DNA of 45,599 nucleotides from a virus. Below are positions 35,229-45,599 of this stretch, in pieces. The stretch covers positions 1-45,599 of IMG/VR virus record IMGVR_UViG_3300027810_000017, one strand, 5' to 3'. The notes beneath the pieces are model-generated. The model ran no database searches, had not been told where the DNA came from, and worked only from the letters and a program-made list of their open reading frames with translations. A program made the position numbers and the translations under genes. How positions within the stretch are numbered: the first letter of the stretch is position 1; each line of letters begins with the position of its first letter.

Positions 35229-37937
35229 ATGGCAGAAATTAATAGAATAACGTCCTTTAAGACTTTTTCGGAAATCAAAGCAACTCAAGTTGCTACACAA
35301 TTGGCTGAAGAGAATGCTACAAAGCGTTCTGAATTAGCTACAAAAATATCAACATTGCTTGATGAAATGGAAATTACTTCATTCGAAGATTTAGCAGAAG
35401 ATACTAAAAGAGAATTTATAACTAAAGCATTTGGAAACGTTTCTGAAGAAGAAGTTGAAGTTGAAGTATCTGATGAAATTAAAGATGAAGATTCTGAAGA
35501 AGTTACTGAAGGTAAGGAAGCAGATGAGGCTGAAGCAATCTTAAGTGATCTTTTAGGTGAAAGAGATATGGATGAATTACGTGGTATGTCGATGGAAGAT
35601 GCATTAGATACTGTAGGAGCATATGGACATAAAGGTTCTAAAGCAAAGAAAATTGCACAAGAATTAGTTTCAATGACTAATGAATCAGTAATAAATGAAG
35701 CTAAAGAATTATTTCAATTAGATATTGATTCTGAAGAGCACGGTGCTTTAGGTCTTTCAGTTACTATGAAAGAATTAAAAGATGTTTATAAGAAGAACAA
35801 GAAAAACATTAATGATGTTGAAGATTTATTGTTTCAATTCGTATATGCTCAACCTGAAGATTTTGCTGCAATAGATACGGAAGGTATGGAAATCTCTGGT
35901 GCAAACGTTGGAGACGTACAAACTATGTTATCTAAAGAATTTGGTATTAAAGAAAATGTTCAACACGAACTTAACGAAGCTATTATCGTAACAGGTAAAA
36001 GAGGAGCTAAGAAAGTATTTAATCAATTAGTTAAAATATGGAACGAATATCCTGCATTTGGAGCTAATGATCAATCACATAAATTAGGAGTATTAAAACA
36101 ATTATTCTTTGATGCAATGGAAGATGCAAACTTCTCTAGAGAAGCTTACGCTATTCTGAAAACAATCAAAGGTAATATTAAACCAGTAACTATTAAAGTT
36201 GCAGAATTAGGTGGTGTAGAATTAAAGTTACCAATGCCTAAAATTAGACAAGCTATTTCAGAACTTGCATCTAGAATCGCAACTGCTGGAGAATGGGGTG
36301 GAATTACAATCGTTGAAGGAACAGCAATGTTCTTAGACTATTTAAAAGAAACTAAAACAGCTGAAAATTTACTTAATGGATTTAATGCACAATTTGAATC
36401 AGTTCAAATTATGGAATCTAGAGTTTCTGAAGGAAGAGCATTTGTTGCAGCTGCTAGAAAAGCTAAAGATGAAGGTTTAGAAGAATTTGAATATGACGGT
36501 AAAACTTACCCAGTTCTTTTAAAAGAAACTAAAACGGTTTTAAACGAAGGAACAAGAGGTCAATTTGGTAAAATAGATAAAAAAGGAAATATTACTTCTG
36601 TATATATGCATTACGATTCATATCCAGAAAATATTCTACCAATTATCAAACAATCATTTAAAGGTGGTAAAAATGTTGATGTTGTTATTTCTAAAGGAAA
36701 CAACTCAGGATTAGATAAAAATGTTGATGCAATAAACTATTATAACGACGAATCTGCTGGAGAAACAGGAAATGTTAAAAAGATAGACAATTATCTTAAA
36801 ACAGCAAGTAATGATAGTGGTGCAGAATATGTATACCTATGGGACGAAGGTTCTAAAACTTGGATGATGGCAGATATTTACGGAGGTTCTGGATTAGTTC
36901 CAGCCTTTGAATCTGTAGTTACTGAAATAGAAGAAATTGAAGAAGGTAACGCTTTCGGAGATGCAGTTAAAAAAGCTAAAGAAGCTGGAGAAAAAGAATT
37001 TGAATTTGAAGGTGAAACTTTCAAGGTTGAAGAATCAGAAGAAATTCCAGTTATCGAATCATGTGAAACTTGTGGAGAACAAACATGTGAATGTGCATCT
37101 GAAGAAGTTGAAGAAGCTAAAGTAAACGAAAATCCTGCATTAGTAGCATTGGCTGCAGCAGAATTACTTAAGAAGAAAGAAGAAGAAGCTAGACCAGAAG
37201 ACGAAGAAGAAGAGGTTAACGCTGAAGAAGACGAAGTTGAAGAAGATGAATTAGAAGAATCGGCATTAGTTGAAGCTAAATCAATTAAGGTTACTAAGAA
37301 AGAATGGCCCTATGTTGAATTTAAAATAGGTAGTACAAAACATAAAGTTGAATTTGATTACGAAGATATAATTGATGATCATGGTAATGAGGGTCAAGAT
37401 CAATTCTGGTTAGGTAAAGATGATGATGGTAAAGAATGGTCTATCGATGTTTACGCTGATTATAATGGTGATGTTCAAGATGTTCATTATGATACTATCG
37501 TTGCCGAATCAGTAATTGCTGAAGGTAAATCAGGAGTTAATACATTCCTAGCAAATATCGCTAACGACTATCAATTTGATAAAAAGCACGATCATTATTC
37601 AGGATTTCTAAACACAGAACCAAGTGATATGGGTGACGATGCTATTGAATTTATTAATAACGTTGATAAATATAAATCATTAATGAAAAAACACGGACTT
37701 TCATTAGAACCTGGATATAGTGATAAAGAAGCAATATTTGTTAAAGAATCAGTAGTTAACGAAGCAGAAATTAAATCTGACGAAGAGTTTACTGAATACG
37801 CAAATACTGTTTTAAAACAAGCATTCGGAGAAGATTTTGACGAAGCTAAAGCAAAAGAAGTTATTGATGGTATCTTATCTAAAAGCGACGGAGATTACGG
37901 AGCTGCAGTTGGAATGTTAACATCTTCATTAGGATAA
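35229..37937 (+). CDS. Putative head-packaged polyprotein with at least seven prohead-protease-like sites
   Basis: 902 aa. Candidate cut sites of the form [I/L/V]xE before Ala or Gly occur after Glu157 (SVINE), 250 (HELNE), 401 (RVSE), 440 (TVLNE), 572 (IEEIEE), 682 (ALVE), 765 (VIAE) and 845 (VVNE). They fall between distinct segments: a helical domain (251-400); a 39-residue mini-domain (402-440) repeated at 573-605; a domain starting TRGQFGKIDKKGN with YMHYDSYPEN (442-570), which resembles a small family seen in bacteria and phages; a Cys cluster CETCGEQTCEC (612-622); an acidic tract (650-678); and three small C-terminal pieces. The first ~100 residues are a charged leader. Cleavage in the prohead is inferred from T4. 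It ends at a strong terminator. Confidence 0.6.
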   Translation: MAEINRITSFKTFSEIKATQVATQLAEENATKRSELATKISTLLDEMEITSFEDLAEDTKREFITKAFGNVSEEEVEVEVSDEIKDEDSEEVTEGKEADEAEAILSDLLGERDMDELRGMSMEDALDTVGAYGHKGSKAKKIAQELVSMTNESVINEAKELFQLDIDSEEHGALGLSVTMKELKDVYKKNKKNINDVEDLLFQFVYAQPEDFAAIDTEGMEISGANVGDVQTMLSKEFGIKENVQHELNEAIIVTGKRGAKKVFNQLVKIWNEYPAFGANDQSHKLGVLKQLFFDAMEDANFSREAYAILKTIKGNIKPVTIKVAELGGVELKLPMPKIRQAISELASRIATAGEWGGITIVEGTAMFLDYLKETKTAENLLNGFNAQFESVQIMESRVSEGRAFVAAARKAKDEGLEEFEYDGKTYPVLLKETKTVLNEGTRGQFGKIDKKGNITSVYMHYDSYPENILPIIKQSFKGGKNVDVVISKGNNSGLDKNVDAINYYNDESAGETGNVKKIDNYLKTASNDSGAEYVYLWDEGSKTWMMADIYGGSGLVPAFESVVTEIEEIEEGNAFGDAVKKAKEAGEKEFEFEGETFKVEESEEIPVIESCETCGEQTCECASEEVEEAKVNENPALVALAAAELLKKKEEEARPEDEEEEVNAEEDEVEEDELEESALVEAKSIKVTKKEWPYVEFKIGSTKHKVEFDYEDIIDDHGNEGQDQFWLGKDDDGKEWSIDVYADYNGDVQDVHYDTIVAESVIAEGKSGVNTFLANIANDYQFDKKHDHYSGFLNTEPSDMGDDAIEFINNVDKYKSLMKKHGLSLEPGYSDKEAIFVKESVVNEAEIKSDEEFTEYANTVLKQAFGEDFDEAKAKEVIDGILSKSDGDYGAAVGMLTSSLG

Positions 37938-37952
37938 AAAAACAAAAAAAGT

Positions 37953-37990
37953 ATGACCTGGATTTTTCCGGGTCATTTCTTTTTATTATA
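37953..37990 (+). terminator. Intrinsic terminator
   Basis: ATGACCTGG (37953-37961) pairs with CCGGGTCAT (37968-37976), one G-T wobble, loop of 6 nt, followed by the U-rich tail TTCTTTTTATT. It closes the 902-aa gene's transcript, only 24 bases before the next start, so the following gene probably has its own promoter in TATTATATTTACATAT. Confidence 0.85.
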
Positions 37991-37999
37991 TTTACATAT

Positions 38000-39292
38000 A
38001 TGAAAAAACCTATTTTAACATACGAACAGTTTCTTATAGAGAGATCTAATACGAACGTACAAGACTCTCAATTAATATTAGAAGGAGGAGCAGCAGGTCA
38101 CATGAAGCACCCCTTTGATGATCAATCATTAACATTTGGAGATTTTAAAAAGATAGTACATGCTGGTTTACAGGGTGAATTAAACTTTGAAGAAGAAGCA
38201 ACTGAAAAGACAGATGGTCAAAATGTATTTGCAACAGTACAAGATGGTGAAGTTAAATTTGCTAGAAACAAAGGGGATATGAAAAACCCAATGTCTCTAT
38301 CTCAATTTAAAGACAAATTCGATGGACATCCAAGTAAATTAGTTCAAGACACTTTTCAATTTGCTGCAGAAGATTTAGCAGGTTCATTAAATAAATTATC
38401 CCCTAAAGATTTAGAGATATTTGATAATGGTAAGAACTTCATGAACATGGAGCTTATTTACTCTAAGAATCCAAACGTTATATATTATGACAGAGATGTT
38501 ATTCAATTCCACGGAATTAAAGTAACTGATGGTGAAGGTAATATTATTGGAGAAGAAACTAAGTATGCTAATAGTATTGCAAAAGCACTAAAAGATTTAA
38601 AACTTAATATTGGAAAAACATTTACAGTGATTCCACCTCAAGTTATTAAACTAGGTAAAGATATTGACTTTGAAACAAATAAGAATAAATTCATAAAAAA
38701 GGTAGAGGATCTAAAGAATCGTTATAATTTAACAGATGCTGATGAAGTTTCTAGATATCACGAAATGTGGTGGAGAGAATTAATAGAATCAAACTTTCCA
38801 GATTTAACACAAGACCATAAAGAAGGTTTGTTATTAAGATGGGCATATGGAGATAAAAAGACTCTTAACTTAAGATCTTTAGATAAAACACTAGGAAAAG
38901 ACAAAGCATCAGTTATTAAGAAATTCGATAAAGAAGATTTTAAAAAGAAACAAAAGGAAAATATTAGACCATTCGAAGACCTTTTCTTAGAATTAGGTAG
39001 TGTTATTCTTAAAAATGCAAGTAACTTTGTTGCTGCTAATCCTGATAAGGAGATGCAACGATTACATACTCAAATTAGAACTGAAGCTGACAAGATTAAA
39101 AAAGGTGGAGGTGCAGAACAAGTTAATAAAGTAATTGCAGAATTAGACAGATTAGATAGAATCGGAGGTATTGAATCTATAATCCCAACTGAGGGAGTTG
39201 TATTTGTATATAAAGGTAAAGTTTTTAAACTTACTGGAACATTTGCAGCAATTAATCAATTAATGGGAATCATTAAATACGGAGGAAGATAA
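38000..39292 (+). CDS. Polynucleotide-ligase-fold nucleotidyltransferase with capsid-targeting-like N-terminus
   Basis: 430 aa. Motif I is EKTDGQN with Lys70 as the likely AMP-accepting residue. Motif III-like NMELIYSK has Glu151, and FHGI is at 170-173. Motif IV is EGVVF (398-402) and motif V VFKLTG with Lys410. These are the signatures of ATP-dependent RNA/DNA ligases, though no known ligase subfamily is matched and the helical insert (about 230-390) is unusual. The N-terminus MKKPILTYEQFLIE resembles the T4 capsid-targeting peptide, and LILE28|GG is a second [I/L]xE|G site just before the conserved GGAAGHMKHPFDD. This suggests a ligase carried in the head and trimmed to begin GGAAGH. Likely substrate is nicked or broken RNA; unproven. 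Confidence 0.68.
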   Translation: MKKPILTYEQFLIERSNTNVQDSQLILEGGAAGHMKHPFDDQSLTFGDFKKIVHAGLQGELNFEEEATEKTDGQNVFATVQDGEVKFARNKGDMKNPMSLSQFKDKFDGHPSKLVQDTFQFAAEDLAGSLNKLSPKDLEIFDNGKNFMNMELIYSKNPNVIYYDRDVIQFHGIKVTDGEGNIIGEETKYANSIAKALKDLKLNIGKTFTVIPPQVIKLGKDIDFETNKNKFIKKVEDLKNRYNLTDADEVSRYHEMWWRELIESNFPDLTQDHKEGLLLRWAYGDKKTLNLRSLDKTLGKDKASVIKKFDKEDFKKKQKENIRPFEDLFLELGSVILKNASNFVAANPDKEMQRLHTQIRTEADKIKKGGGAEQVNKVIAELDRLDRIGGIESIIPTEGVVFVYKGKVFKLTGTFAAINQLMGIIKYGGR

Positions 39293-39307
39293 ACAATAAA
39301 ATAGAAT

Positions 39308-41191
39308 ATGGCACTTACAAAACTAAGAGAACATTTTCAAGGAACTAACTCAAACGAGTTCCAGAGATTATTAAATAATAAAGTGATGGTTGTTGAAAAG
39401 ATTTCAGCTCCTTCATTTTATGTTAGAAGAACTAATGAAAAGTTTGAATTCTATAAGTCTTCAAACTCTAAACCACTTACAATTATTGATAGGACTATAA
39501 TGTCCTTATATGAAGTTGGTATTAAACACATTCAAAGTTTAAGTCCAAGTTCTAAGGAACAATTACCTACTGATTATAGATTTGGATTTGAATATTTACC
39601 AGAAACTAATGTATCTTCATATTCGTATGATTCTACACCAACTAGTAATTTAATCTTAACAAACATTCAGCAAATGACTGAAGGCGGTAAGGTTAAGAAA
39701 ACAATAATTGATCCATCTATTTTAGAAAAGTGGTCAAATGTATTAGAAGTGCAAAAGCAAGATGTTATTTTTTATGGTGTCTTAGATTCAATGCAGAAAG
39801 AACAATTAGTAAAATTGTTAGAAATGAATGATAAAGAATTCTCACAGTCATTTGATTATGATATAGTAACTGAGACTGAAACTTCATTTACAAAAGAAAT
39901 TTACAAACTTTTTAATCCAAACTCAACTAAATCAGTATTACAAGAAGATTTAGAACAAGAAATTGACGGTTTAATCTTAAACTTCGCAGAAGGAAAAAAG
40001 ATAAAATCATTTAAGTTAGAAGATTTTATAAGAGAATCAATTAATGAAAGTCGCGAAAGTTCTCACATGTATCAAATAGCAATTGCAGATATATTAGAAT
40101 ACTTTACTAGTTATGACTTTAGTAAAATACAATTAGTTGAGGAAAGTGCTGATCATAGGTATATTGAATTAATGTCAGTTGTATTTAATGAATATATTGG
40201 TAAAAATGCTTCAAGATATATTGGAGTTAATTTTGAAAATGCAGAATTCTCTAAAGGAAACTCATTTAACCTAAACACTAACTTTATAAAGAACGAGAAG
40301 ACACTCAGACATGTATCTAACGACGTATTATCAAGTTTATTCAAAATTACACTAGGAACATTTAGAAAGCAAAAGAACAAGTCCTCTGACATTTTAAATG
40401 ATGACATGATAGTTCAATTAAATAATGTAGTAGATAAAATAAATGAAGTTGTATTCGTAGAAAACACTGATGAAAACTCTATTTACGATTATAGTAACTT
40501 TATACTTCACGATAAAATTAAAACTAAGATGAGTGTTAATGAGGCATTAACAGTAACATACGGAGAACAAGGAAAACAGCCAGTCAATATATTTGTTGGT
40601 AGATTTCAACCGTTTACTCTTGGTCATGCTAAAGTATTAGAAACAATGCATAAGGAAAATGGATTTCCTGTAGTTGTATTTTTAATTAAAGCAAAAAAGA
40701 TAAAGAAAGGTGAAGAATTTAAAAGACCTTATAGCGAAGAGTTACAAATTGAAATGTTTAAAAATGTTCAAAAGCAATATAAATTCCTAAAGGATATTAT
40801 AGTACTTCCATCAGCAGCGATAGATAAAATGTTTAATGAACTAAGACCTAATTATGAACCAGTATTATGGGGAACAGGATCTGATAGAATGAAATCTTAC
40901 GGATATCAAGTAAACAATGATTCTTATAGAGATCAATTAAATGCTAGAGCTGATTTTGGTCTTTTTGAAATTCCAAGAACAGATGATAATATTTCAGCAA
41001 CTCAAGTTAGAAATGCATTATTAGATGGTGATGAAAAGACATTTAAGAAAATGACACCTAAGGCAATCCATAAAATGTATGGTGTTTTAAAGTCAGAATT
41101 AGAGAACGTTATGGAGTTAGTTCCAGAATCAAAAGAGACAACTGGATCATTCATGACATTCGAACAATATATGAATAAATTAACTAATTAA
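39308..41191 (+). CDS. Ligase-like / NMN adenylyltransferase fusion with inter-domain cut sites
   Basis: 627 aa. Residues 25-240 resemble a second ligase-type nucleotidyltransferase: VVEKISAPSFYVRR (Lys31), FGFEYLP (92-98), EIDGLILNF (218-226), and SFKLED (234-239). Residues 425-590 are a cytidylyltransferase-like domain of the NadM/NMNAT kind: NIFVGRFQPFTLGH with the TxGH motif ending at His440, WGTGSDR (521-527), and ISATQVR (562-568). Such enzymes make NAD from NMN and ATP. Candidate prohead sites SINE247|S and SVNE412|A lie between the domains, and the C-terminus SFMTFEQYMNKL also resembles a targeting peptide. The protein may therefore be delivered as separate enzymes. The starting ATG follows the 15-base gap after the ligase gene. 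Confidence 0.7.
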   Translation: MALTKLREHFQGTNSNEFQRLLNNKVMVVEKISAPSFYVRRTNEKFEFYKSSNSKPLTIIDRTIMSLYEVGIKHIQSLSPSSKEQLPTDYRFGFEYLPETNVSSYSYDSTPTSNLILTNIQQMTEGGKVKKTIIDPSILEKWSNVLEVQKQDVIFYGVLDSMQKEQLVKLLEMNDKEFSQSFDYDIVTETETSFTKEIYKLFNPNSTKSVLQEDLEQEIDGLILNFAEGKKIKSFKLEDFIRESINESRESSHMYQIAIADILEYFTSYDFSKIQLVEESADHRYIELMSVVFNEYIGKNASRYIGVNFENAEFSKGNSFNLNTNFIKNEKTLRHVSNDVLSSLFKITLGTFRKQKNKSSDILNDDMIVQLNNVVDKINEVVFVENTDENSIYDYSNFILHDKIKTKMSVNEALTVTYGEQGKQPVNIFVGRFQPFTLGHAKVLETMHKENGFPVVVFLIKAKKIKKGEEFKRPYSEELQIEMFKNVQKQYKFLKDIIVLPSAAIDKMFNELRPNYEPVLWGTGSDRMKSYGYQVNNDSYRDQLNARADFGLFEIPRTDDNISATQVRNALLDGDEKTFKKMTPKAIHKMYGVLKSELENVMELVPESKETTGSFMTFEQYMNKLTN

Positions 41192-41250
41192 TTTTAGTAC
41201 TATAAATAATAGATATATAATCTAATAATATAAAATAAAAGTAATAATAA
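41192..41250 (+). promoter_or_regulatory. Spacer with TATAAATA and GATATATAAT motifs
   Basis: This 59-bp spacer has TATAAATA (41201-41208), identical to the T4 late consensus, and GATATATAAT (41212-41221), identical to copies at 15803 and 29415. With 29-42 bases to the ATG at 41251, this is the best-placed candidate promoter of the window for late expression of the polyprotein genes. Confidence 0.4.
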
Positions 41251-42972
41251 ATGGAAAATCAACATAGCGATCAACCAGGTAAATTGAACGAGAAAAAGCT
41301 AGTAACAAAAAGAGCTTATACTGAATCACACCCTGCAAAAACGGTTGGAATGACAGCTAAGATCAGAAATAAAATGTTAGAAGCTATCAAGGATGGTAAA
41401 GTAGCAACTGGTGAATTTGATAGAATTTTAAAGGAACTTTCATCTAACTCTAAGAGATGGATGAATAGAAATGGTAAATTATTTAATGTTTCTGAGGAAG
41501 GAATTTCATTATCAACTTTAGGAAAAAGAATTCTTAAAGGAATTACAGTAAACGAAGCTACCGAAGAGAATCCGGAAGTATGGGTTCCTAGTGGATTTGA
41601 TAAAGCAATTTCAAAATTGCCAAACAGTCAAGTAACATTAGATGTAGTTAAAAAACTAGCAAAAAAACATAAAGTATTTATTGAAGATGCTATAAAATAC
41701 GTTGAGTATGGATGGGCACTGGATTTACAAGAGAACAAAAACACGCAAATTATGAAAACTAAATTAGTAACGGAATCTTTTCAAGAATTTATTAGTGTAA
41801 ACGAAGCAACCGTTGTTATGGATGCAACACAACCTGATGATAAAGCCTTTTTAAAATTCTTAAAAAAGAACAAAGTATCAATCGAAGTTATTGATCAAAA
41901 CGGTCCTTCAGGATTTCCAGAAGTTGAACTAACAGGAAAAAGAGAAGATCTTGAAAAAGTTTTAGCATCTCCAGACGGATGGGATGATGCTGATTTAGCA
42001 GAATACATTGAAGAATCAGTAGTTAACGAAGCATTTAAATCTTCTAAGTTAAGAAACTTATTAACAATGACAGATTCAATGACATACGGCGATAAAGCAG
42101 ATGCTGCATTACCTAAAGCATTTTATCAATTAACTAAAATGAAATTAGATCAAATCGGAGACGAAGATTTAATCGACATGACACCTAAAGAAGCTTATAA
42201 AGCATATGCTAACGATAGAGACACTGTAGTATTTTATATAGTTGATAATGACAAAGCAAATCCATTCGGAACAGGACAAGTTGCTCCTGGTGTTTTAGCA
42301 TTAACAAGAGGAAAAGATTTCTTAGGAGTTCAATATGAATCAACAGGATATAGAAGAAAGAAGAACACTAAAACTTTAAAAGGTGGAGATGATAGAATGG
42401 CAGTTGGTGGTAACAAAGCATATAAAGGATACGATGCAACAGGAATAGCTTCAATTAAAAGAGCGGCTGATTTAGCAGATAGAGCAGTAGCATTTAGTTT
42501 AGTAAATACTGCAAAATCTTCTAAGGAAGATATAGCAATGAGAGTAGATCAAAAATCTGGAGCTACTGCATTTATGAATGATAAAGACTTTAAAGATGCA
42601 AACTCATCAAGATACAAAGAAATATTAGCAACTAAAGCTTCTAAATTACCATTAGATAAAATGGTTAATGACGCAATAGACGATTTATCATCGCAAATCA
42701 AAAATGGTTTAGCTAAAGGTGAAAAAGGAAGATATGGAGATATCCTTATTGGAAGAACATCTAAGGATAGAGAGGTTAAAATGAGAGACGCATCTAATCA
42801 TATGTCTAGTATATTAGACGATTATTCAAGATACGTTGATTATACTAAACAAGCTGAAGAAGCTAAAGCAGATAAATACTCATCTAGCTACTACGAAAAG
42901 GAAGTTAAAAACTACGCCAAAGAAATTAAAGATAAATGCGCTAAAATCAAGAAATTTGATTACGCTTGGTAA
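41251..42972 (+). CDS. Putative head-packaged polyprotein with three sites and an internal targeting sequence
   Basis: 573 aa. Candidate cut sites follow Glu102 (TVNE|A), Glu185 (SVNE|A) and Glu260 (VVNE|A). Residues 168-186 (MKTKLVTESFQEFISVNEA) look like a complete T4-type targeting N-terminus (MKTYQEFIAEA) placed inside the chain. Predicted pieces are a basic helical domain (30-102, MTAKIRNKMLEAIKDGK), a short helical piece (103-185), a small alpha/beta piece (186-260, FLKFLKKNKVSIEVIDQNG), and a 313-residue C-terminal protein, basic and helical, with no recognised family. It could be DNA-binding inside the head. The stop is one base before the ATG of the next gene. Confidence 0.6.
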   Translation: MENQHSDQPGKLNEKKLVTKRAYTESHPAKTVGMTAKIRNKMLEAIKDGKVATGEFDRILKELSSNSKRWMNRNGKLFNVSEEGISLSTLGKRILKGITVNEATEENPEVWVPSGFDKAISKLPNSQVTLDVVKKLAKKHKVFIEDAIKYVEYGWALDLQENKNTQIMKTKLVTESFQEFISVNEATVVMDATQPDDKAFLKFLKKNKVSIEVIDQNGPSGFPEVELTGKREDLEKVLASPDGWDDADLAEYIEESVVNEAFKSSKLRNLLTMTDSMTYGDKADAALPKAFYQLTKMKLDQIGDEDLIDMTPKEAYKAYANDRDTVVFYIVDNDKANPFGTGQVAPGVLALTRGKDFLGVQYESTGYRRKKNTKTLKGGDDRMAVGGNKAYKGYDATGIASIKRAADLADRAVAFSLVNTAKSSKEDIAMRVDQKSGATAFMNDKDFKDANSSRYKEILATKASKLPLDKMVNDAIDDLSSQIKNGLAKGEKGRYGDILIGRTSKDREVKMRDASNHMSSILDDYSRYVDYTKQAEEAKADKYSSSYYEKEVKNYAKEIKDKCAKIKKFDYAW

Positions 42973-42973
42973 T

Positions 42974-44725
42974 ATGAAAGAATTAGAAGAAAATATAACA
43001 ACAAGTTCTATTACAGGAATGGGGGAGGTTACCCTACCAACAGCAACGCAAAATGGATCAGGGGATGTTCCTGCTAATTCAGGAGACGCTGAAAAAGAAT
43101 ATAAAAAGAAAAAGAAGAAAATGAAAAAATTACTAACATTTGAATCATATGTTAACGAAGCTAAATTTGACAAAAAGAAGTTAATGAAAGCGATGAAAAT
43201 GGATGATGGTATTATTCAATTAGCAAATGGTGATGAATTTATCATATACAACCCAGATAATGGAAATGACGAAAACACTGCAATGTGGAATGACAAAGTT
43301 ATATTTGCATTAGATCAAGACGGTGAAGAACACGAAGTTAAATATTCTGACATTGTAAGTTATAATGAATCAGAAGTTAACGAAGCATTTTCTAGAATGT
43401 CTAAGGATACGATAGAAAATGAATTATACGCTGCTTCACAAGCACTAACAACTTATTATGATTGGCTCAAAGCTGGAAATGATTCAGGTAAAGGCGAATC
43501 AATAGATCATGTTATATCTCTATTGAAAAAATGTAAAAGTAATATTAAAAGGTTTAATAAACCAGAAGAAGTTAAAGATACTGCATACGAATCATTAGTA
43601 AACGAAGCAGTTTCAAAGACTACTAAGATATATCAAATTGCAACACCAGCTCCTAAGAAGATGTTGGTTGAAGAGTTAGAAAACTTATTTGGTGATGATT
43701 ACAGACATATTGTTACTGAATTTGATGACAACGAAGGATATGAATCTGTACTAGTATTTAATCTTACAAATAAAGATATTCAGAGAATACAAAATGAAAT
43801 TGCAGATGTTTTAATTTGGGAATACTCAATTAAAAAAGGCAAAGAAATTACAGAATCATTAGTTACTGAAAAATTTAAATTTAGTAAAAAAGAAGTAGAA
43901 GCTGCTGCTAACTTAATAGCATCTGCAATTTCTCAAGCTGATATGGTTAAAGCAAAGGTACATGACTTAGAATATGTTAAAGGTAAAGGAGCTGGTTTTG
44001 AAATTTCAATTGACGGTGAAAAATATGATGGTGGAAGCTATGTAGTAAAAGATAACGGAGATGTTGTTAATGCTGCAATCGGTAACTCACATCCAAATGC
44101 AGTATACAATACAATAGGTAATAAAGATATTGCAGATGTTTTCATCAATATGGAAAAGTATGAATCATTAGTTTCTGAAGCTAAATTTGTAAAAGAATTT
44201 AACAAAGAAGTTTTAGATGCAAAAACAAAAGAAGAAGTTACAAAAATTTATCCAAATGCAAAATTCTATGTTGGTAAGTCAGATCATTTCTTCGGAGAAC
44301 TAGATGCTAATTTATTCTTTAAAGCATATTATACTAAAGCACAAAAAGAATTTGAAATCAAATCAGTTTACTCTGGTAAAGGAAGTACATACGTTCATTT
44401 ATACAATGAATCAATAGTTAATGAAGCAGCTACAAAATCTGCAGGTCTTGTACAATTTGCAGCAGATGAAAAAGCTGAAGGTAAAAATGCAGAAATTCAT
44501 TTAGCAACCTTTGATGGTTCTGGAATGGAAGCTCAATCAACTAATAAAACATGGGATGATGGTGTTCCAGTAACAAAGAACTTTACAAGAGGAGGTTACA
44601 AGAGAGTAGCACCTAAAGGAGAAGTTTATATTATAGAATCAGACAATTGGTGGTATTTCACATATAAAGCAGTATGGTATGCCGTTAAGAGAAAGGATTA
44701 TGGAACTCCTCCATTTGAATATTAA
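42974..44725 (+). CDS. Putative head-packaged polyprotein with six repeated ES-x-V-x-E sites
   Basis: 583 aa from ATG 42974, one base after the preceding stop; an upstream in-frame ATG at 42836 lies inside the previous gene and is rejected. Sites follow Glu62 (ESYVNE|A), 137 (ESEVNE|A), 211 (ESLVNE|A), 299 (ESLVTE|K), 402 (ESLVSE|A) and 484 (ESIVNE|A). They split the chain into small unrelated pieces of about 75 to 100 residues, such as KFDKKKLMKAMKMDDGIIQL and KTTKIYQIATPAPKKMLVEE. The N-terminus is a Gly/Ser/Thr region and a poly-lysine stretch (42-52). Met50 starts MKKLLTFESYVNEA, itself like a targeting N-terminus, so an internal start at 43121 is possible. No enzymatic motif is recognised. 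Confidence 0.62.
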   Translation: MKELEENITTSSITGMGEVTLPTATQNGSGDVPANSGDAEKEYKKKKKKMKKLLTFESYVNEAKFDKKKLMKAMKMDDGIIQLANGDEFIIYNPDNGNDENTAMWNDKVIFALDQDGEEHEVKYSDIVSYNESEVNEAFSRMSKDTIENELYAASQALTTYYDWLKAGNDSGKGESIDHVISLLKKCKSNIKRFNKPEEVKDTAYESLVNEAVSKTTKIYQIATPAPKKMLVEELENLFGDDYRHIVTEFDDNEGYESVLVFNLTNKDIQRIQNEIADVLIWEYSIKKGKEITESLVTEKFKFSKKEVEAAANLIASAISQADMVKAKVHDLEYVKGKGAGFEISIDGEKYDGGSYVVKDNGDVVNAAIGNSHPNAVYNTIGNKDIADVFINMEKYESLVSEAKFVKEFNKEVLDAKTKEEVTKIYPNAKFYVGKSDHFFGELDANLFFKAYYTKAQKEFEIKSVYSGKGSTYVHLYNESIVNEAATKSAGLVQFAADEKAEGKNAEIHLATFDGSGMEAQSTNKTWDDGVPVTKNFTRGGYKRVAPKGEVYIIESDNWWYFTYKAVWYAVKRKDYGTPPFEY

Positions 44726-44744
44726 AATAAATAAATAAACAATT

Positions 44745-44783
44745 ATGAAACACGTACAATTATTTGAACAATTTATAAACGAA
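44745..44783 (+). repeat. 39-bp direct repeat, copy 1 (targeting-peptide codons)
   Basis: Identical to 45201-45239 at every base, covering codons 1-13 of the gene here. Identity stops exactly where the predicted mature protein begins. Confidence 0.9.
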
Positions 44784-45188
44784 GCAACTTGGGACCAAGG
44801 AGTCTATGGTACAGAATCATATCCTATAACTGATGGAGATTTAGGTACAGCGGCTTTTAACGGAAGACAGCTTGGTAGATATAAGTCAAGTGAAGCTAAG
44901 GAAATATGGAAAAAGCAAGGTACTGTAGTTTCTAATAAGAACGAGTATTCAACTCAAAAATTAACAGATGCTGCGTATGCTTTATCGGAACAAGGTGTTC
45001 AAGTTAAAGAAAAACAAATCCAGAAAGGTATCTTAGTTTGTAAAGAATTTAAGTATCAATTCACAGGAGGACAATGGCTTGCAACTTTCGGTAATAGAGA
45101 ACAGGCAATGAATATTTATGAATTTATCGAAGCAACTGTTGCATCGAAGTATATCTGGGAGGGTGATAAGACTTACGGAACAAAATAA
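44745..45188 (+). CDS. Predicted head-packaged protein with capsid-targeting-like N-terminus
   Basis: 147 aa. The N-terminus MKHVQLFEQFINEA matches the T4 capsid-targeting pattern (basic start, aromatic-x-x-Phe-Ile, then IxE|A), with the expected cut after Glu13. The mature part would be a 134-residue alpha/beta protein (WDQGVYGTESYPITDGDLGT, LVCKEFKYQFTGGQWLATFG) of unknown function. Its first 39 bases are identical to the start of the next gene. It follows the polyprotein gene with a 19-base AT-rich spacer (TAAATAAATAAAC). Confidence 0.68.
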   Translation: MKHVQLFEQFINEATWDQGVYGTESYPITDGDLGTAAFNGRQLGRYKSSEAKEIWKKQGTVVSNKNEYSTQKLTDAAYALSEQGVQVKEKQIQKGILVCKEFKYQFTGGQWLATFGNREQAMNIYEFIEATVASKYIWEGDKTYGTK

Positions 45189-45200
45189 TAAAATAATAAA

Positions 45201-45239
45201 ATGAAACACGTACAATTATTTGAACAATTTATAAACGAA
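45201..45239 (+). repeat. 39-bp direct repeat, copy 2 (targeting-peptide codons)
   Basis: Second copy of the repeat at 44745-44783, covering codons 1-13 of this gene. Identical synonymous codons imply recent duplication or gene conversion of the leader alone. Confidence 0.9.
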
Positions 45240-45599
45240 AAAGTATACAGAATGACTGGAATCTATAGTTCTAAAGGATTAGTAGGTAAGGTAATGCAGG
45301 CATTTAAGAAAACTATAGAAAAAGTTTCTTATGAAGGAGATCAAAAAGCAACATTAGCCGAGGTTAATAAAGCATGGTCAAGTTTTAAATCAACCGGAGA
45401 AAAGATTATCTTAGATGTTGTTGAAAAAGGGGCAAAGAGTATGGATTCAGTATTATTCGTAACAGCTAATCTAGATAAAGGATTTCATATTGACGAAATT
45501 AATAAATTAAACAGCGAAGATTCTAACCAATTATTCGTTGGATATGAATTAGTAATTAACGTTGGATTTATGGATGATGTTAACGGTAGCAAATTGTAT
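45201..45599 (+). CDS. Predicted head-packaged protein, 3' end cut by window edge
   Basis: At least 133 codons, open at the window end. The N-terminus MKHVQLFEQFINE is identical to that of the preceding gene, but is followed by Lys rather than Ala and then an unrelated mature sequence (VYRMTGIYSSKGLVGKVMQA, VLFVTANLDKGFHIDEINKL). The shared leader with different bodies is what one expects for a targeting peptide moved between cargo genes. No family is recognised. The spacer to the previous gene is 12 bases. Confidence 0.65.
   Translation, partial: MKHVQLFEQFINEKVYRMTGIYSSKGLVGKVMQAFKKTIEKVSYEGDQKATLAEVNKAWSSFKSTGEKIILDVVEKGAKSMDSVLFVTANLDKGFHIDEINKLNSEDSNQLFVGYELVINVGFMDDVNGSKLY

Follow-up and report, generated by a model that had tools for sequence, protein, structure and literature searches.

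Why do seven consecutive genes of one virus carry, some of them many times over, a motif resembling the cutting site of the phage T4 prohead protease? The genes lie at nt 35229–45599 of IMG/VR record IMGVR_UViG_3300027810_000017 (45,599 nt; called the window, meaning the whole stretch analysed), with all seven open reading frames (ORFs) on the + strand. They specify three long chains (polyproteins A, B and C), a ligase-like nucleotidyltransferase, a protein with an NMN adenylyltransferase (NMNAT) domain, and two proteins that begin with a peptide like the capsid-targeting sequence (CTS) of T4 (Table 1). An initial annotation, made from the letters alone, saw in them internal head proteins, largely encoded as polyproteins that the head protease cuts apart; all seven ORFs are where it placed them, with at least one site in each. 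We consider it probable that the products are head cargo of a marine T4-like phage, liberated by its head protease. The earlier proposal is partly supported. The comparative evidence for it consists of T4-type peptides, relatives that encode an S77 protease and a gp23-type major capsid protein (MCP), the placing of sites where modules meet, a site before the NMNAT domain kept in 44 of 44 homologues, and dips in the confidence of an AlphaFold2 (AF2) model, while its cutting, packaging and injection steps are carried forward as predictions. Three of the strongest points were absent from that annotation: the shuffling of modules as cassettes at the sites, the loss of the targeting residues from most internal sites, and an Acb1-like anti-defence enzyme among the standalone tagged proteins of relatives.

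Relatives were taken from IMG/VR as stretches encoding homologues of the ligase-like protein (80 kept of 241). The stretch L009 is 97% identical to the window over much of the region, and among 50,697 phage records a close relative of the window was not found.

Anatomy and statistics of the sites

A loose form of the motif, [ILVMF]xE[AGS], occurs about 12.7 times per 1000 aa in the module versus 3.8 times in other window genes, and was rejected as stand-alone evidence because it is too frequent. The stricter pattern E[SQ]hhxE[AGSKN] gave 12 matches in the window ORFs, all within the module, versus 0.15 expected from shuffling. Two relatives (176 and 212 kb, with 188 and 249 ORFs) had seven matches each, where 0.6 and 0.55 were expected; nearly all were in genes of this kind, most of them either at residue 8 or within long ORFs of several domains. 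A position-weight matrix detected 4.3 sites per 1000 aa in the motif-bearing proteins, a figure that is circular by selection as the matrix was built from those same sites, versus 0.01 in shuffled versions; at its strictest threshold it found zero sites in other genes.

The N-terminal sites have the consensus M-K-H-[IV]-K-L-F-E-Q-F-[IV]-N-E/ (n = 55; a slash marks the predicted cut, with P1 and P1′ on either side) and the internal sites x-E-S-V-V-[NT]-E/A (n = 188). Both targeting aromatics are present in 94% of N-terminal sites (n = 95), a value biased somewhat upwards by a site-finding matrix that includes those positions, versus 10% of internal sites (n = 281). P3 is hydrophobic in 97% of N-terminal and 94% of internal sites, and the P1 Glu, always present in the former, is kept in the latter.

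For T4, the initial annotation cited internal proteins starting MKTYQEFIAE/A and a cutting consensus of [L/I]xE/[A/G/S] for the prohead protease gp21. The start was read for IPII and IPIII in record AF158101, and a gp21 motif of L/I-X-E is given in the literature, as is the division of labour in IPIII: residues Y4 and F7 serve targeting, I8 and E10 serve processing, and Asp at position 10 blocks processing while targeting is unaffected (PMC9026906). The N-terminal peptides described here have aromatics at the positions equivalent to 4 and 7, a hydrophobic residue at 8 and Glu at 10. Since they keep all four positions and the internal sites mostly lack the aromatics, the pattern is the one expected if N-terminal peptides target and are cut and internal sites are cut only; with this split, laboratory T4 offers a direct test of the idea.

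Searched as a DNA pattern, the N-terminal peptide matched about 90 times, in 10 of 13 phage records; a reversed control matched nothing, and in each of nine IMG/VR records all matches fell on one strand. The pattern marks up to 18 standalone genes tagged with the peptide per phage, including 17 in LR756500 (462 kb); there were zero matches in PTm1, Lak-B5 and Mel-JY01.

Enzymes, polyprotein B and the head genes of relatives

The 627-aa NMNAT protein has one clear site only, directly before the NMNAT domain. Its 44 distinct homologues show 11 variants at this point (LNEAL, ITEAL, IMEGL, ILEAL, etc.), all fitting [ILV]xE/[AG]L, amid sequence that is otherwise variable. The NAD-directed enzyme named in the initial annotation is borne out by matches of the domain to NMN adenylyltransferases (PF01467, E 1.4e-7; PDB 1f9a and 2qjo), with GRFQPFTLGH and ISATxVR conserved. 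At the C-terminus of the 627-aa protein is a conserved tail like MTFEQFINK; it has the two targeting aromatics and no Glu, and is predicted to target the protein without being cut. The N-terminal 400 aa (nt 39308–40507) resemble a second, degenerate ligase-type nucleotidyltransferase in which EKISAP replaces KxDG, and homologues of this domain are found in several huge phages (LR7565xx).

Homologues of the ligase-like protein open with a variable targeting-like peptide followed by [ILV][LM]E/GGAAGHM, and this second site extends to distant phages, as IIAE/GG in Mel-JY01 and LILE/GG in LR756500. Residues E55-K56-D58-G59, E137, E384-G385 and K396 are invariant in 27 sequences, and we take them to be motifs I (KxDG), III, IV (EGxV) and V (K) of the nucleotidyltransferase superfamily. 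The description of this enzyme as RNA-directed agrees with the ligase motifs, but no significant PDB sequence match was found, the top PDB hit by fold (E 0.18, to the adenylyltransferase domain of a tRNA ligase) is not significant, and the similarity to predicted viral RNA ligases is weak; fold searches of both structure models against PDB returned nothing significant. In the Microcystis phage Mel-JY01, a 639-aa ORF (L128:8308-10227) carries fused GRFQP nucleotidyltransferase and ligase-like domains with the IIAE/GG site between them. A terminator-like hairpin (GACCTGGATTTTTCCGGGTC, then T-rich DNA) lies at about nt 37955–37995 of the window, between the polyprotein A gene and the ligase gene.

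In polyprotein B, the Glu before module F2 is invariant in 23 polyproteins despite a differing preceding module. The AF2 model of this chain, which is moderately reliable (mean predicted local distance difference test score 70), has ten low-confidence segments in total, three of which (101–106, 161–183 and 255–260) are at or near the predicted cuts 102/103, 185/186 and 260/261.

Among ten large relatives, an S77 prohead protease was detected in eight and a gp23-type MCP in seven, in each case on the contig that carries the module. An ORF of 640–830 aa encodes the protease at its N-terminal end, and the remainder resembles a coiled-coil scaffold (head loci including L104–L107). Neither gene was found in two large records, G001 and G006, which are probably incomplete; a head-gene contig (L178) comes from the same metagenome as G001. 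The initial annotation had suggested a comparison with sites on the MCP, and all seven profile-found MCPs of relatives begin with a similar motif, MANLINE/[AS]EI. Sixty-four further MCPs, found with a search pattern that itself contains the motif, have MANL[IL]NE in 62 cases and MATLINE in two. A Shine-Dalgarno-like sequence is present at only 1 of 28 window gene starts, and the nearest named MCP relatives include phages of Bacteroidota (Prevotella Lak phages and Tenacibaculum PTm1), so that the host may be a member of the marine Bacteroidota. The T4 late promoter TATAAATA was found without specificity for MCP or module genes.

Table 1. Positions of genes, predicted cutting sites and modules in the window (nt 35229–45599).
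Feature	Position (nt)	Strand	Remarks
Polyprotein A, 902 aa, with several sites predicted for the prohead protease	35229..37937	+	
Site NESVINE/A, cut after aa 157	35679..35699	+	matrix score 21.5
Weaker site HELNE/A, cut after aa 250	35958..35978	+	
Weaker site MESRVSE/G, cut after aa 401	36411..36431	+	matrix score 8.3
Weaker site TVLNE/G, cut after aa 440	36528..36548	+	borders phrog_1987 domain
phrog_1987 domain, aa 441-549	36549..36875	+	E 1.9e-13
Site FESVVTE/I, cut after aa 566	36906..36926	+	matrix score 17.1
Site AESVIAE/G, cut after aa 765	37503..37523	+	
Module F14, 80 aa including its site	37524..37763	+	cassette common to L009, L010, L011, L051
Site KESVVNE/A, cut after aa 845	37743..37763	+	
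Module F3, 57 aa	37764..37934	+	frequent C-terminal module of polyprotein A
Ligase-like nucleotidyltransferase, 430 aa	38000..39292	+	invariant EKTDG, MELIY, EGIVF, KLTG-type motifs
N-terminal targeting-like peptide MKKPILTYEQFLIE/R	38000..38041	+	CTS-like in 45/46 distinct homologues
Second site LILE/GGAAGHM, cut after aa 28	38063..38083	+	
627-aa protein, degenerate ligase-like N-terminal domain + NMN-adenylyltransferase domain	39308..41191	+	
Site MSVNE/AL	40523..40543	+	immediately before NMNAT domain
NMNAT domain + C-terminal tail	40544..41188	+	predicted product of MSVNE/AL cut
C-terminal targeting-like tail FEQYMNK (in MTFEQYMNK)	41159..41179	+	without cleavable Glu
Polyprotein B, 573 aa	41251..42972	+	modules s1, s2, F5, F2
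Site ITVNE/A, cut after aa 102	41536..41556	+	
Internal Met + CTS-like peptide MKTKLVTESFQEF	41752..41790	+	ESFxxF invariant in 23 homologues
Site ISVNE/A, cut after aa 185	41785..41805	+	
Module F5 (phrog_5922)	41806..42030	+	also in polyprotein A; in one lineage inside scaffold protein
Site EESVVNE/AF, cut after aa 260	42010..42030	+	E260 invariant in 23 homologues
Module F2, 313 aa	42031..42969	+	conserved C-terminal product (predicted) of polyprotein B
Polyprotein C, 583 aa from ATG at 42974	42974..44725	+	seven segments, six sites
Site FESYVNE/A within CTS-like MKKLLTFESYVNE	43139..43159	+	
Module F18	43160..43384	+	97% identical DNA in L009 polyprotein A
Site NESEVNE/A	43364..43384	+	
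Site YESLVNE/A	43586..43606	+	
Site TESLVTE/K	43850..43870	+	
Site YESLVSE/A	44159..44179	+	
Site NESIVNE/A	44405..44425	+	
Module F6	44426..44722	+	free-standing tagged protein in L019, L024, L064
147-aa protein, N-terminal CTS MKHVQLFEQFINE/A (44745-44783)	44745..45188	+	
Protein with CTS MKHVQLFEQFINE/K (45201-45239)	45201..45599	+	ORF runs off contig end; L009 homologue in family F9

Shuffled modules and competing explanations

When 223 non-redundant motif-bearing proteins were split at their sites, the segments were typically 60–100 aa long, and many fell into families. Members of one family recur in different polyproteins, at different positions and in different phages, or stand by themselves after a targeting peptide. 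The polyprotein A gene has a conserved place upstream of the ligase gene and a module content that varies among relatives; in many relatives polyproteins B and C follow the NMNAT gene, and their contents also vary. Module F18 (nt 43151–43385) belongs to polyprotein C in the window and to polyprotein A in L009, and the latter has one extra module exactly at KESVVNE/A, between F14 and F3. Tandem duplicates were seen of F12 (in L071) and F5 (in L016), while phrog_1987 is a free-standing gene without targeting peptide in Synechococcus phages. Across 118 polyproteins, 42% of 891 shared-block ends fell within 8 aa of a site versus 8% expected, but block ends are not independent and the nominal p value of this test is therefore unusable. 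It replaced a less strict boundary test, based on gapped, low-identity high-scoring segment pairs, in which the enrichment was weaker (12% versus 4% within 5 aa).

Cutting at such sites need not mean that the pieces stay in the head. T4 core proteins of the gp22, gp67 and gp68 type are cut at several of them and mostly lost (PMC9026906), and the polyproteins could likewise be parts of the prohead core (scaffold), with fragments that mostly leave the head and single-domain enzymes as the only true cargo. In accordance with this, a small gene between portal and protease, where T4 has gp67/gp68, begins with the targeting peptide in relatives, and in one lineage (six contigs, probably one phage group) module F5 is found within the scaffold part of the protease-scaffold ORF. 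We regard this explanation as unlikely, however, as the cuts fall between distinct modules, in low-confidence linkers, and the module content is hypervariable among close relatives, unlike that of an assembly scaffold. In addition, F6 occurs as a free-standing tagged protein, and another module is a free-standing gene in other phages.

The linkers also show a marked choice of synonymous codons. In internal linkers, GTA accounts for 85% of the Val codons at P4 (background 38%), GTT for 86% of those at P3 (55%), and ACT for 86% of the Thr codons at P2 (49%). This bias is far above that of the surrounding genes, so that the linkers look related as DNA, and it lends something to the idea that the motif is mainly a recombination joint, with uncut multidomain proteins that act whole, packaged or not, like the polyvalent proteins known as multidomain phage effectors (PMC5512222). 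That idea is less probable still than a scaffold role: internal sites keep the P3 and P1 processing residues and lose the targeting residues, the site in the NMNAT protein keeps its consensus under different sequence in divergent relatives, and a similar peptide begins the MCP and the core-position proteins. Nor does codon bias exclude cutting, because the roles of joint and cutting site are compatible; our reading of the sequences is that the linkers are recombination joints that would also encode cutting sites. The argument from motif identity alone is weakened by the bias, and the points resting on divergent sequences are unaffected.

It is very improbable that separate products arise from internal translation starts or a host protease instead of the prohead protease, for although T4 gene 21 has an internal start and, where module s2 is present, homologues of polyprotein B retain an internal Met ahead of the CTS-like MKTKFIYESF, in an A-rich context like that of the phage's gene starts, this arrangement was found in polyprotein B only (the other candidate noted being only MKKLLTFESYVNE in polyprotein C) and the sites match the gp21 motif, with a similar one on the MCP. 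The internal Met and peptide of polyprotein B could possibly be an internal start or the relic of a gene fusion.

Several findings weigh against cargo liberated by the head protease. The gp21-like protease, which the initial annotation had proposed to locate, was found in eight of the ten large relatives, but the window's own contig is without head genes. A canonical N-terminal targeting peptide is absent from polyproteins A and B. The [I/L/V]xE/[A/G/S] motif is present as annotated, except that some sites have K, R, N or I in the P1′ position. More than half of the module ends lie away from any recognised site, and a Pfam scan of 81 module representatives gave no recognisable function for most modules. 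A looser targeting pattern had the same density in polyproteins as in other long ORFs, a comparison that was not used as its control contained copies of the NMNAT protein. Lastly, given the codon bias of the linkers, motif conservation may come partly from recombination at the DNA level and not from selection for cutting.

If the products are head cargo, as we favour, the F/Y-x-x-F-I/V-x-E peptide, placed at or near a terminus, would bind precursors to the prohead core in the manner of the T4 CTS. During maturation the S77 prohead protease would cut after [I/L/V]-x-E in the linkers and separate the polyproteins into small domains, along with the ligase-like and NMNAT enzymes. The pieces would remain associated with the DNA and probably pass into the infected host, injection being likely by analogy to T4, and they would there counter host defences and repair damage ahead of phage gene expression. 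In this way a large group of marine T4-like phages would appear to stock its heads with dozens of small proteins. Judged by content, a counter-defence role is likely; among the known themes of counter-defence are the repair of RNA ends and enzymes acting on NAD (PMC9503650, PMC7824862). The linker DNA would double as the recombination joint by which modules are gained, lost, duplicated and moved. On whether this group of marine T4-like phages as a whole shares a modular cargo system, in which effectors are stored as polyprotein arrays and the linker is both protease site and recombination joint, our judgement is evenly balanced. Such a system would imply that cassettes move among arrays and tagged genes that stand alone, and even into or out of the scaffold protein, and that the ready-made anti-defence proteins which arrive together with the genome turn over fast.

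Known systems and standalone tagged proteins

The N-terminal peptides share the residue spacing [YF]xxF[IV]xE/A with T4 IPI-III and Alt, and further likenesses to T4 are the S77 protease and gp23-type MCP of the relatives and the many small, variable proteins. In T4 each internal protein is produced on its own, with cuts at both ends in Alt, whereas in the present chains numerous domains follow one another, separated by sites: instead of one protein per gene, three window chains have 3–7 sites, and 118 chains with internal sites were counted in the window and relatives. Other differences are the internal sites, which have mostly lost the residues for targeting, the conserved targeting-like tail at the C-terminus of one enzyme, which has no cleavable Glu, and the fusion of the protease to the scaffold in relatives. 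The ejection (inner body) proteins of SPN3US and phiKZ are likewise numerous and virion-internal, some being cut by a related prohead protease, while a virion location is here predicted. In SPN3US, 13 of 14 mapped sites remove N-terminal propeptides, at the motif A-X-E, and the release of several domains from one chain, as proposed for the present polyproteins, is not reported (PMC10052503). Polyvalent proteins (P1 DarA and DdrB, for example) are also large, mosaic, multidomain phage proteins that exchange domains and are in some cases packaged, but their proposed release is via embedded peptidase domains and not prohead-protease sites, and their domain content differs (PMC5512222); ART, MPTase, PBECR, Toprim and other domains of the polyvalent type gave zero matches among the 81 module representatives scanned with Pfam.

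The multi-domain arrangement had been called under-described; in the open-access literature searched (most subscription papers and all preprints lie outside it), no description was found of head cargo made as modular polyproteins for a prohead protease to cut. A single targeted chain that yields many proteins would, as far as could be found, be a novelty among tailed phages. A rule of MKxxxxFExFhxE/ at the start and [ILV]xE/A between domains would make virion cargo predictable from sequence alone, and would single out numerous uncharacterised proteins as effectors that are probably injected, given the number of tagged genes per phage and the further modules in polyproteins.

Forty-seven tagged standalone proteins were scanned with Pfam, and the matches included Acb1, PNK3P, GNAT, a DUF2201 metallopeptidase and leucine-rich repeats. 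The Acb1-like protein is above the Pfam cut-off, has both HxT motifs (HCT and HMT), and is predicted to be a virion-delivered enzyme directed against CBASS (cyclic oligonucleotide-based antiphage signalling system); it suggests that some phages may arrive with ready-made defence inhibitors. Proteins of this type, which start with MKKIKLFEEF[LM]NE, are encoded at L224:1479-2018 (G003:C1:2478-3017) and L229:2185-2724 (G005), the Pfam match having been made on the former and the latter being a close homologue by eye. Leucine-rich repeats were matched in 5 of the 47 scanned proteins, and those seen are from the huge phage LR756500, where one is encoded at L237:2447-3280 and similar proteins are present in L238, L239, L241 and L243.

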